In this document: positions 13,236-28,492 of the stretch, piece after piece
How the letters are laid out: every line of letters begins with the position of its first letter
Position numbering within the stretch: position 1 is the stretch's first letter
Origin: Streptomyces sp. NBC_01689
GTDB lineage: Bacteria > Actinomycetota > Actinomycetes > Streptomycetales > Streptomycetaceae
Direction of reading: 5' to 3'
Length of the DNA stretch: 64,000 nucleotides
NCBI RefSeq assembly: GCF_036250675.1
Contig: NZ_CP109592.1
Span: 7,564,001-7,628,000, forward strand
Program-made: the position numbers and the translations under genes
Notes under the pieces: model-generated
The model's database searches: none
What the model was told of the DNA's origin: nothing
What the model saw: only the letters and a program-made list of their open reading frames with translations

Positions 13236-14891
13236 TCAGTCGCGTGACCGCAGATAGGCCCGCCAGCCGCCGTACGCCGTGATGTCCTCGGCGCCCTCCA
13301 GCGCGGCGGGCTCGCACAGGAAGCCGGGGACGTGCGTGCCGTCGGCCAGCTCGACCCGGCCCAGCGTCATCGGGCGGGGCAGGTCGGCGAGCAGCCGTCC
13401 GAGCCCCTCGGCGGGCAGCCGCCACACCTCCGCCTCGACGCTCGCCCCGCCGGCGCCGGTGCGGACCAGGCCCGGCTTGGGGGGTGTGGTGGCCAGGGCG
13501 TGCAGCCGGTAATCGGCCGCCGTCGCCGTCGTGCGCTCCCACTCGGCGCCCAGGGCGAGGAGCTGCGGGTTCAGAGGCTGGCCCGACAGATGGGCGCCGA
13601 CCACGGCGACGCGGGTCCACGGCCGCAGCAGGGCGGCGATCCGCGCGAGCCGCTCGTCGGTGAACGCGGGGCCGATCAGCATCACGCCGAAGGGCAGCCC
13701 GTCCACGGTGCCCGCCGGAACGGCGACCGCGGCCTGGTCGAAGAGGTTGGTGGAGTTGGTGAAACGCCCCAGCCGGGCGTTGGCGCCCAGCGGATCGGCG
13801 GCGACCTCCGCCGACGTCGGGTGGCCCGGCGCGGTCGGCAGCAGCAGGGCGTCCGCGTCGCCGAGCCCGGCATCGGCCCGCAGGCGCAGCGCGGCCAGCC
13901 GGTCCTGGTCGGCGAAGAGCCGGTGGGCCGGCACCTCCCGGGCACGGGTGATGATCCCCGCGACGACCGGGTCGAGACCCGCACCCCCTTCGGCGATCAA
14001 CTTGTCGACAAAACTCCCCACCGCGGAGTAGCGCTCGGCGACGAACGCGCCCTCGTAGAGCATCGCGGCGGCCTCGGTGAACGGCGTGAGATCGATCGTG
14101 CGCACCTCCGCCCCGGCCGCGACGAGCCGCGCCACGGCGGCCTCGTACGCCTCCGCCCAGCCCGCGTCCAGCTCACCGAGCTGTGCGGTCGAGGGGACGG
14201 CCACCCGCCAGGGGCCGGGGGCACGCTGGGGGAGCGCCGGCAGCGGGCGCCCGGACGGTCGGCCCAGGTGGGCGAGGGCCCGTTCGGCCTCCGGGAGCGT
14301 CCGGGCGAAGACGGTCACGCAGTCCAGGGAGGCACAGGCCGGGACGACACCGGTGGTCGGGACCAGACCCCGGGTCGGCTTGAGGCCGACGATGCCGTTG
14401 AAGGCGGCGGGCACCCGGCCGGAACCGGCGGTGTCGGTGCCGAGGGCGAGGTCGACCAGGCCCAGCGCGACCGCCACCGCCGATCCCGAGCTGGAGCCAC
14501 CGCTGACGCGCTCCGGGTCGAGGGCGTTGCGCACGGCGCCGTACGGGGAACGGGTGCCGACCAGACCGGTGGCGAACTGGTCCAGGTTCGTGGTGCCCAG
14601 GACGAGGGCGCCGGCCGCGCGCAGGCGGGCGACCGCGGGGGCGTCCTCCTCCGGGAGGTACGCGTACGCCGGGCAGCCCGCCGTGGTCGGCAGGCCCGCC
14701 ACGTCGATGTTGCCCTTCACGGCGAGGAGCCGCCCGGCGAGGGGGAGGGGCTCACCCGCGGCGACACGGGAGTCGAGGGCCTCGGCCTCCTCCTCCACCT
14801 CGGCCCGCGGGCGCAGGCCGATCCAGATCTCGGGGCGGTCGACCGCCTCCATTCGGGCGTAGGCCGACTGCACTCGGGCGAGGGCGGACAT
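13236..14891 (-). CDS. atzF: Allophanate hydrolase
   Basis: 551-residue amidase-signature enzyme that hydrolyses allophanate (urea-1-carboxylate) to ammonia and CO2. The Ser-cisSer-Lys triad is visible as Lys59 (LAVKGNID), Ser133/134 (GGSSSGSA) and Ser157 (GTDTAGS). The C-terminal ~120 residues (from about 430) form the extra domain typical of AtzF-type enzymes and absent from simple amidases. It is the last gene of the minus-strand operon, 121 nt behind the carboxylase. It completes either a urea carboxylase or a guanidine carboxylase route; the two DUF1989 genes upstream favour guanidine. Confidence 0.92.
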   Translation of the reverse strand: MSALARVQSAYARMEAVDRPEIWIGLRPRAEVEEEAEALDSRVAAGEPLPLAGRLLAVKGNIDVAGLPTTAGCPAYAYLPEEDAPAVARLRAAGALVLGTTNLDQFATGLVGTRSPYGAVRNALDPERVSGGSSSGSAVAVALGLVDLALGTDTAGSGRVPAAFNGIVGLKPTRGLVPTTGVVPACASLDCVTVFARTLPEAERALAHLGRPSGRPLPALPQRAPGPWRVAVPSTAQLGELDAGWAEAYEAAVARLVAAGAEVRTIDLTPFTEAAAMLYEGAFVAERYSAVGSFVDKLIAEGGAGLDPVVAGIITRAREVPAHRLFADQDRLAALRLRADAGLGDADALLLPTAPGHPTSAEVAADPLGANARLGRFTNSTNLFDQAAVAVPAGTVDGLPFGVMLIGPAFTDERLARIAALLRPWTRVAVVGAHLSGQPLNPQLLALGAEWERTTATAADYRLHALATTPPKPGLVRTGAGGASVEAEVWRLPAEGLGRLLADLPRPMTLGRVELADGTHVPGFLCEPAALEGAEDITAYGGWRAYLRSRD

Positions 14892-15012
14892 GGGGTGCTC
14901 CTTGATCGTCGGGCCGGTCGGTTCCGTCTGTTCCGCCCGTGCCGTCGGTTCCGCCGGGCCCGCGGCATCGGGCTCGGCGGTCGCATCGGCGTCGGCGGGG
15001 GCGATCGCCGGG

Positions 15013-18000
15013 TCAGGTGGCGGGAGCCAGGACCACCAGGGCCGTGCCCGCCTCCACCTGGGCGCCCGGCCTGGTGAGGACCTGTCGTACGACTCCGTCC
15101 ATCGGGGCGGACACCCTCGACTCCATCTTCATCGCCTCCAGCGCCAGCAGGGGCTGGCCGGCGGTGACACGGTCGCCCGGCTCGACGTTCAGCTGCCACA
15201 CGGACGCGGCGAACTCGGCCTCGACGAGCCGGCCGCCTGCCGGGACGGTGACCTCGGCGGCCGGGGGCGCGGGTACGGCGGCGGCGTCCGCCCGGGCGAA
15301 CTCGCCCGCCGCCTCCCAGGCGTCCCGCTCGGCGCCGAACGCGGTGCTCTGCCGGGCCCGGAACCGCGCGATCGACTCGGCGTGATCGTCGAGGAACTCT
15401 TCGTAGGCCGCGAGGGAGAACTCGCCCTCCTCGATCCGGGGCACGAACCGCCCCGAGACGATGTCCGCGCGCAGACCGAGGAGTTCGTCGGGCTCCACGG
15501 CGTACCACTTGATCCGGTCGAAGAACCGCAGCAGCCAGGGCGAGCCCGGTTCGAAGGCGCCGCGCTGCTGCCACGCCGACCACACCTGGGTGGTCCGGCC
15601 CACGAACTGGTAGCCGCCCGGACCCTCCATGCCGTAGACGCAGAGGTACGCGCCGCCGATGCCGACGGAGTTCTCGGCGGTCCAGGTCCGTGCCGGGTTG
15701 TACTTGGTGGTGACCAGACGGTGCCGCGGGTCCAGCGGGGTCGCGACCGGCGCGCCCAGGTACACGTCGCCCAGGCCCAGGACCAGGTACTCCGCGTCGA
15801 AGACGGTGCGGTACACGTCGTCCACGGAGTCCAGACCGTTCACCCGGCGGATGAACTCGATGTTCCACGGGCACCAGGGGGCGTCGTCGCGGACCCCGGC
15901 CATGTAGCGGTCGACGGCCTCGCGGGTCGCCGGGTCGTCCCAGGACAACGGGAGGTGCACGGTCCGGGAGGGCACCACGAGCCGGTCGGTCGGCGGCAGC
16001 GCGCGGACCGTCTCCCGCACTGCGGCGAGCAGCGCGCGCTGCGGGAGTCTGCGCGGATCGGCCTGGATCTGCAGGGATCGGATGCCGGGGGTCAGATCGG
16101 TGACGCCGTCGAGGCCGGCCGCGGCCACCGCCTCCATCAGGGCGTGGACCCGCATGCGCAGCGCGAGGTCCAGCCGCATGGGCCCGAACTCGACCAGCAG
16201 GTTGTCGTCGCCGCTGCGGCGGAACGTCACGTCGCCGTCCCGGGCCAGCACCCCGCCGTCCACGACCGCGGCCCGCTCCGAGCCGTCGTCGGCGAGCGGC
16301 GCGAAGCGCACGGTGTCACCGGGGCGGAGCTGGCCGAGTTTCCAGCGCTCCGTGCTCACGACCGTCGCGGGGCAGACGAAGCCGCCGAGCGAGGGCCCGT
16401 CCGGGCCGAGCAGCACCGGCATGTCACCGGTGTAGTCGACGGCGCCCACCGAGTACGGCGTGTCGTGGATGTTGGACGGGTGCAGGCCCGCCTCGCCGCC
16501 GTCGGTCCGCGCCCAGCGGGGCTTGGGACCGATCAGGCGCACACCGGTGCGCGCCGAGTTGAAGTGCACCTTCCAGTCGGCCGCGTAGAAGTCGTGGATG
16601 TCGTCCTCGGTGAAGAACTCCGGTGCCGCGTGCGGGCCTTCGAGCGCGCCGACCCGCCACTCGGAGGTGAAGGAGGGCCGGTCGGCGAGCGGCACGGGTG
16701 CCGTCGCGCCGGTGACCGAGCCACCGTGCAGCACGTCCCCCGTCCGCAGCGCCCGTCCGCCGTGTCCGCCGAACCGGCCCAGGGTGAAGGTGGCGGCGCT
16801 GCCGAGGAACGCCGGGACGTCCAGGCCGCCGCCGGCGAAGAGGACGTAGGTGCGCAGGCCGTGCCCGGTGGGCGCGCCGACCTCCAGCACCGCTCCCGCG
16901 GGCACCGTCACCGGCTCCCACCGGGCGACCGCCGTGCCGTCCACGGTGACCGGCGCGGGGGCACCGGTGACACAGACCGTGACGGCGTGCGTGAAGCGCA
17001 GGGCGGGCCCCCGCAGGGTGCACTCCAGGCCGGGCGCCCCTTCGTCGTTGCCGAGGGCGCGGTTGCCCAGCCGGAAGGACAGGTCGTCCATCGGACCGCA
17101 CGGCGGCACGCCCACCTGCCAGTGGCCGGTACGGCCCGGCCAGTCCTGGACCGTGGTGAGGGTTCCGCCGGAGACCACCTCGACGCGGGGCGTGGGATCG
17201 CCGATCCCGGCCAGCGTCGCCGTGGAGTGCGCCGCCCGGCGGAAGGCAGGGTCGCCGAGCGCGGCCCGTACCAGTCCCAGGTTGGTCTCGACGCCGTCGA
17301 CCCGGGTCCGCGCCAGCGCCTCGTCCAGCCGCGCCAGGGCGTGCGCGCGGTCCGGACCGTACGCGACGACCTTCGCCAGCATGGGGTCGTACGCGGTGGT
17401 CACCTCGGTGCCCGTCTCCACCCAGCCGTCCACCCGGACACCGGCGGGGAACTCGACCCGGGTCAGCAGGCCCGCGCTCGGCCGGTGGGCGCGCGAGGGG
17501 TCCTCGGCGTAGAGCCGGGCCTCCACGGCGTGACCGCGCGGCGCCCCAGGGTCCCGTACGACCTCCGTCTCACCGCGTGCGAGCCGCAGCATCCAGGCGA
17601 CGAGGTCGATCCCGTAGATCTCCTCGGTGACCGGATGCTCCACCTGGAGGCGGGTGTTGACCTCCAGGAAGTACGCCTCCTCGCGCGCCGCGTCGTACAC
17701 GAACTCGACCGTGCCGGCCGAGCGGTACCCGACACTCGCGCACAGGTCGCGGGCGCTGGAGGCGAGACGGTCCCGCACCTCCGCCGGGAGCCCGGGGGCC
17801 GGGGCCTCCTCGACGACCTTCTGGTTGCGGCGCTGGAGCGAACAGTCGCGGTCGCCGAGGGTGACGACGCGTCCCCGGCCGTCGCCGAACACCTGCACCT
17901 CCACATGGCGCGCGTCCTCGATCAGGCGCTCCAGGAAGACCCCTGCGGACGTGAAGGACGCGGCGGCGACCCGCTGCACGCGCTCCCAGGCCTCGCCCAG

Positions 18001-28447: not shown

Positions 28448-28470
28448 GATGGCACCTGCCTTCGGCGCGG

Positions 28471-28492
28471 ATTCCTGTCGGGTGACAGAAAT
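28471..28492. promoter_or_regulatory. Second copy of the guanidine-operon operator
   Basis: Arms ATTCCTGTCG and TGACAGAAAT around GG, followed by TAGG. It matches the palindrome at 20059-20080 at most positions. Both sites start exactly 24 bp upstream of the respective minus-strand start codons and share the flank CTAATTTCTGTC when read on the minus strand. Confidence 0.7.

Follow-up and report, generated by a model that had tools for sequence, protein, structure and literature searches.

The AmtR regulon of Streptomyces avermitilis is listed in Table 3 and the Figure 7 legend of PMC4222082 with sav6701, sav6697, sav6698 and the permease gene sav6709. It is the closest described relative of a locus in Streptomyces sp. 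NBC_01689, found in a window of 64,000 nucleotides (contig NZ_CP109592.1, positions 7,564,001 to 7,628,000), to which all coordinates refer. The locus consists of a catabolic operon, a divergent gene for an AmtR homologue and a separate APC permease gene, with a 22-base-pair (bp) palindrome before both operon and permease. The gene set equals that of S. avermitilis, where amtR is also divergent and the permease gene lies apart (PMC4222082). The regulon itself is therefore already known, and the one in the window is its orthologue. The published regulon differs in being read as urea or nitrogen metabolism; the accessible parts of the source contain neither a guanidine assignment nor GlnR boxes in these two promoters. 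In the window, both units very probably form an AmtR regulon for guanidine utilisation, a reading that leaves aside what releases AmtR. It is based on the two sites, their rarity and conservation, their covariation with AmtR, the gene families, an aspartate signature and GlnR-type boxes. In S. avermitilis, Chen reportedly demonstrated in 2013 direct control of sav_6697-6700 and sav_6709 by electrophoretic mobility shift assay, along with two further AmtR sites.

In Mycobacterium smegmatis, AmtR (msmeg_4300; targets around msmeg_2184-2189) binds the msmeg_2184 promoter, and deletion of amtR raises expression while a GlnR-dependent nitrogen control persists (PMC4222082). As proposed for the window, genes for a permease, a carboxylase and a hydrolase are repressed, and GlnR is needed for the nitrogen response. 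The arrangement differs, in the accessible parts of that paper, in that amtR is not co-localised with its targets and the permease gene adjoins the others by locus number. The AmtR of Corynebacterium glutamicum is a homologous regulator, and its box, CTAT-N6-ATAG (PMC8864220, accessible part), resembles CTGT-N6-ACAG. It differs in its reach, governing nitrogen metabolism globally with more than 30 genes under its control.

The TetR-family gene of the window (20316..20951, + strand) lies divergent from the operon next to the first palindrome, as the original prediction had it, and its sequence identifies the product as an AmtR homologue. The best match among solved structures is 5e57 (E 5.9e-36, residues 20-191 of 211), which is the AmtR of M. 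smegmatis. The AmtR structures 5mqq (E 2.1e-30, residues 20-208) and 6gy3 were also matched. The original prediction proposed a protein repressor, which is supported; it overlooked the AmtR identity, the published orthologous regulon, the GlnR-type boxes and the relatives in which the cluster is not split.

Predicted AmtR operator 1, ATTTCTGTCGCCCGACAGAAAT on the + strand (20059-20080), matches ATTTCTGTCN4GACAGAAAT exactly, and predicted operator 2, ATTCCTGTCGGGTGACAGAAAT (28471-28492), matches it with one mismatch, located in one half and conserved among relatives. On the minus strand the two operators share CTAATTTCTGTC, a 12-mer that occurs exactly twice in the genome. The distance from operator to start codon is 24 at both units (20059-20035 and 28471-28447), so that the positions, spacing and common orientation first described all stand. 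The two units are indeed separate; their start codons lie 8.4 kb apart, not the 7 kb originally given. Allowing at most three mismatches over 18 fixed bases, the whole-genome search that had been suggested returned operators 1 and 2 only, across 9,958,319 bases, and 100 shuffled window sequences gave no match to the 22-bp pattern. With 16 fixed bases and three mismatches allowed, seven further places appeared in the genome, all at exactly three mismatches (three inside and four between script-predicted open reading frames (ORFs)); the control, a reversed pattern, gave two matches per strand. The paired palindromes are real and far beyond chance. Both contain the exact core CTGTC-N4-GACAG, which is also the core of the 22-bp AmtR consensus TAtCTGTCa-n2-cGACAGATAT, quoted from Chen 2013 in PMC8864220. 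The outer bases of the window operators are unlike that consensus.

The operon is encoded on the minus strand. Its first gene is UAAP1 (19211..20035; TIGR03425, 312 bits, over cut-off), followed by UAAP2 (18525..19214; TIGR03424, 323 bits, over cut-off, scored on 18525-19286); both are DUF1989 proteins and predicted carboxyguanidine deiminase subunits. The start of UAAP2 is most likely 19214, by ATGA overlap, rather than 19286. A biotin-dependent carboxylase, predicted to act on guanidine (15013..18528; TIGR02712, 1824 bits, over cut-off), and an allophanate hydrolase with amidase and AH_C domains (13236..14891; TIGR02713, 710.9 bits against a cut-off of 511; PF01425, PF21986; 4gyr, E 1e-146) complete the unit. 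ATGA overlaps at the UAAP1/UAAP2 and UAAP2/carboxylase junctions make a single transcript likely. These family assignments agree with those first made for the operon. It has been reported that a guanidine carboxylase call needs aspartate at two positions (Nature 2024, PMC11410670), and that aspartate marks guanidine carboxylases and asparagine urea carboxylases (2025 review, PMC12186494; both sources in their accessible parts). When aligned with the Kluyveromyces lactis enzyme (5i8i), the carboxylase has Asp698 at Asn1330 and Asp921 at Asp1584. Because of this pair of aspartates, together with the gene content (two DUF1989 genes and an allophanate hydrolase, all over curated cut-offs), the operon most likely encodes a guanidine pathway, as originally proposed in preference to urea. 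Among 45 related loci, both aspartates are present in 38, methionine stands at 1330 in four, and the carboxylase is unreadable in three. A run of near-repeats of cgtgcc units was seen at 19110-19210, where the N-terminus of UAAP2 is encoded.

For the promoters, 60 operon and 47 permease promoters were stacked, from the window and 64 loci among the matches listed in a scan of named genomes (at least 67 loci). S. avermitilis is absent among those matches. Three very short or weak matches (L313-L315) were excluded, and the remaining loci come partly from the same organisms as the genus survey below, which makes the two counts not independent. The stacked sites were picked at up to three mismatches, and operator conservation is therefore partly a product of selection. 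The half-site ATTTCTGTC is invariant in 60/60 operon and 47/47 permease promoters, and GACAGG is kept in the permease operator in 46 of 47 loci, a lasting asymmetry. The 24-bp spacing is not conserved: it varies widely, 25 being commonest with 10 of the 60 operon promoters (inferred starts). A TAATTT hexamer overlaps each operator on the minus strand (20077..20082 and 28489..28494), which we take from the motif to be a -10-like element; its CCTA flank is kept in 60 and 47 loci, respectively.

Just upstream of each operator, and equally far from it, lies a GlnR-type box on the minus strand, with four 5-bp elements 11 bp apart in box 1. Elements with this 11-bp spacing are conserved across the stacked promoters and fit the GlnR consensus gTnAc-n6-GaAAc (PMC10704036, accessible part). 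Box 1 (20093..20130) has GTAAC-n6-GCAAC as its best unit (8/9) and a second unit of 6/9; box 2 (28505..28542) has GTCAC-n6-GAAAC (28505-28520; 9/9) and a first unit of 6/9. Shuffled sequences reached the best unit in 5/1000 cases for box 1 and 1/1000 for box 2. At fixed register, all 60 stacked operon promoters have a two-unit score of 12-15 of 18; among the 47 permease promoters, 45 score 13-15 and the remaining two 3 and 4. A shifted-register control gave means of 3.8 and 4.3 and maxima of 9 and 14. Beyond the genus, the three loci of a single family (L209-L211; 9/9, distance 50) repeat the arrangement exactly in front of the operon. These conserved boxes are putative GlnR sites at both promoters, to which a GlnR protein would bind. 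In L215, L219 and L233, the AmtR-type palindrome itself holds 8 or 9 of the 9 bases of a GlnR unit, and AmtR and GlnR could therefore compete for one site there.

In a survey of 150 genomes of the genus, UAAP1 scored over its cut-off in 40, which split into 35 with this operon type and five others. Each of the 35 has the site before UAAP1 and no more than 250 bp from it, and 33 genomes have at least two sites. One site is found in G044, which has no close permease (best match 3.6e-46), and in G001, which is 79% complete with the permease cut by a contig end and was kept among the 35. G097 has two sites, with no permease recognised beside the second; permeases were scored as the best candidates per genome. 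G139 carries a permease with no operon found, and a single site before that permease at one mismatch. In the five others (G003, G007, G020, G063, G111), the permease adjoins UAAP1 and AmtR is more distant (41-44%). No site within three mismatches occurs near their operons (in G111 a single match falls on a different contig); G003 and G111, whose loci were read, have ATACCTGTCN4GACAGGTAT, with the same core, before the permease. Across the 115 genomes outside the 35, these five included, some match at up to three mismatches is present in 12, and at one mismatch in G139 only.

The split of the locus is one arrangement of a cluster that is compact in some relatives. AmtR stands directly between operon and permease in G065, G041 and G028, where the conservon is absent. 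L305 and L306 look like compact clusters of the G065 type, and L287, L295, L299 and L304 are without recognisable conservon or RluA genes. Third, weak sites at two or three mismatches in some genus genomes (G122, G110, G032, G024, G013, G040 and G068) were provisionally judged unrelated. Neighbour scans found a weak GH18-like protein (under cut-off) and a deacetylase/glycosyltransferase in G122, a catechol dioxygenase in G110 and no family in G032; for the sites in G024 and G013 the scan covered the ORF layout.

The association extends to other families. A class sample of 394 genomes contained 42 with a UAAP1-type match (E<=1e-40), and the 30 outside the genus were all read. A TetR gene homologous to that of the window (37-68% identity, E<=1e-8) lies in 22 of these 30 loci. 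The core CTGTCN4GACAG is present at up to one mismatch in the scanned promoters of 19/22 (shuffles: mean 0.40, maximum 3) and exactly in 11/22 (shuffles: 0). Among the remaining three, an exact palindrome occurs near the TetR gene of L234, and L236 and L229 have two-mismatch versions only. Eight loci are without a TetR neighbour, and the site is found in G290 (one mismatch) and G524 (exact, locus L213). Both genomes encode an AmtR homologue elsewhere (44% and 48%), as does the genus genome G323 (75%), which has both sites and no TetR gene in the stretch read. The six siteless genomes (G164, 78% complete, G230, G170, G255, G333 and G311) have no AmtR at E<=1e-12. Site, TetR gene, operon and permease covary within the genus and beyond it, and this supports the single regulon under a protein repressor that was first suggested.

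A guanidine-I riboswitch precedes the operon in three of these siteless genomes, G164, G230 and G170 (the last at exactly 63.0 bits). At gathering score, a guanidine riboswitch was found in 2/38 loci scanned (G164 and G230). Outside the genus, an AmtR site and a guanidine-I riboswitch were not seen together on one operon, with only three riboswitch cases in all. G341, G478 and G524, which have AmtR and the operon, contain guanidine-I matches below cut-off elsewhere in the genome. The three riboswitch operons of the class sample have the same kinds of genes as the window, with 34-53% identity, the permease apart (53-58%). They differ in their RNA control, in that no AmtR was found in their genomes and in methionine at 1330. 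Methionine is found there in L230, L231, L232 and L218, of which three follow a guanidine-I riboswitch; the published aspartate criterion would not class them as guanidine carboxylases. In the window, no Rfam guanidine family was matched at gathering score, in agreement with the earlier reading; the genome has no guanidine-I match under strict filters, the other guanidine classes having been searched in the window.

In the proposed mechanism, the simplest one, AmtR would bind both palindromes over the -10-like elements and start region and repress operon and permease. GlnR, the global nitrogen activator, would bind the boxes just upstream, and with both kinds of site the two units would need nitrogen shortage as well as release of AmtR. 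The permease would import guanidine and the carboxylase would convert it to carboxyguanidine, which the two DUF1989 proteins would deiminate to allophanate; allophanate hydrolase would then release ammonia. As a first guess, guanidine or a pathway intermediate may release AmtR. It is suggested tentatively, at a little under an even chance, that actinomycete AmtR, so far classed as a nitrogen or urea regulator with no small-molecule ligand, senses such a compound as the protein counterpart of the guanidine riboswitch and forms with GlnR a two-key promoter that serves some lineages instead of the riboswitch.

Several observations weigh against this picture. The permease scores under the cut-off of TIGR03428, the urea carboxylase system permease (643.5 against 740.45 bits). 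AmtR (64-77%) is kept without the operon in 10 of the 150 genus genomes (L124-L133). Among 33 loci, mostly of other families, a GlnR unit of 8-9/9 is present in only 16, at varying distance and without a shuffled control. For the eight loci lacking a TetR neighbour, two sites at up to one mismatch fall within shuffles (mean 0.25, maximum 2), and the exact one lies beyond them (shuffles: 0). The three riboswitch operons have methionine, not aspartate, at K. lactis position 1330. At 0.5-5 mM, neither urea nor amino acids released M. smegmatis AmtR (PMC4222082), and C. glutamicum AmtR is described without a known small-molecule effector, with release by adenylylated GlnK proposed (PMC8864220), in the accessible parts of both papers.

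The last two reports favour an alternative in which the regulon is the same and the signal for AmtR is nitrogen status, conveyed by GlnK or a different protein, instead of guanidine or an intermediate. This is a serious contender that nonetheless falls somewhat short of probable. Against it, the GlnR-type boxes already account for nitrogen status, and the strong sites in the genome are confined to the guanidine pathway, though two further sites are reportedly present in S. avermitilis. The nitrogen control of M. smegmatis also survives amtR deletion (PMC4222082, accessible part).

An operon for the breakdown of urea, by urea carboxylase and allophanate hydrolase, is improbable. TIGR02712 is named for urea carboxylase, and earlier papers label the AmtR regulon as urea metabolism (PMC4222082, PMC10704036, accessible parts). 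The carboxylase has aspartate where the K. lactis urea carboxylase has asparagine, and two DUF1989 genes would be superfluous for a urea route, judging from the pathway in the accessible part of PMC11410670. It is very improbable that the palindromes belong to a DNA-binding protein other than AmtR, whose binding in this organism is predicted and which ten genus genomes keep with no exact core in the 12-14 kb read around it, since the site tracks AmtR even when AmtR lies elsewhere in the genome and the operator core equals that of the quoted consensus (PMC8864220).

In L128, one of these ten AmtR-only genomes, a one-mismatch match lies inside the AmtR gene. Nine of the ten have a nearby ORF of 948-1128 amino acids, an RluA or a SIP gene recognisable, not all in each; in L128, the single case checked with Pfam, the ORF is a helicase, as it is in the window. 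Looser palindromes from these AmtR-only genomes were rejected as candidates: no common target was found among 35 forward matches, against 11 for the reversed pattern, which is an imperfect control (forward/reversed 7/1 in G039, 6/1 in G085, 1/1 in G038 and 3/3 in G078). Looser sites in G046 and G054 lie near similar genes. L294 has short operon remnants beside AmtR and no site.

To our knowledge, riboswitches account for most descriptions of guanidine sensing. A literature search for AmtR with guanidine, most subscription journals lying outside it, returned insect papers only. Within the same reach, searches for AmtR with urea, Streptomyces, GlnR or S. avermitilis gave no guanidine reading in titles or the starts of abstracts. 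Three points are therefore candidates for being new: reading the AmtR regulon as one for guanidine, the joint layout of GlnR and AmtR sites in Streptomyces promoters, and the exclusion of the riboswitch. If AmtR is the guanidine-responsive repressor, a published regulator without a found effector gains a testable ligand, and the regulon so far assigned to urea metabolism would be reassigned to guanidine. The effector trials on M. smegmatis AmtR covered urea and amino acids, and guanidine is unmentioned in the accessible part of the paper (PMC4222082). The fixed promoter layout makes two-input logic directly testable.

The APC permease gene (26897..28447, - strand; TIGR03428, PF13520) encodes the predicted guanidine importer. 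In Nitrospira inopinata, too, an APC permease is named as the likely importer of guanidine (PMC12186494, accessible part). The TIGR03428 cut-off was passed in 0/150 genus genomes, with the best candidates per genome scored. A second TIGR03428-like permease is encoded at G000:C1:7837077-7838483 (543 bits), and paralogues like it are common among genus genomes without the operon. Between the two units lie conservon-like genes (21247..25881, + strand; HATPase, roadblock, DUF742, GTPase and a P450 below cut-off, by Pfam) and an RluA pseudouridine synthase gene (25903..26844, - strand). Family searches agree with the original description of these genes and of the permease beyond them. The conservon-like genes are not in the compact clusters, and both they and the RluA gene are outside the regulon. 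Elsewhere in the window, positions 55094-55305 match the Streptomyces RNA Scr1601 in Rfam with 190 bits.

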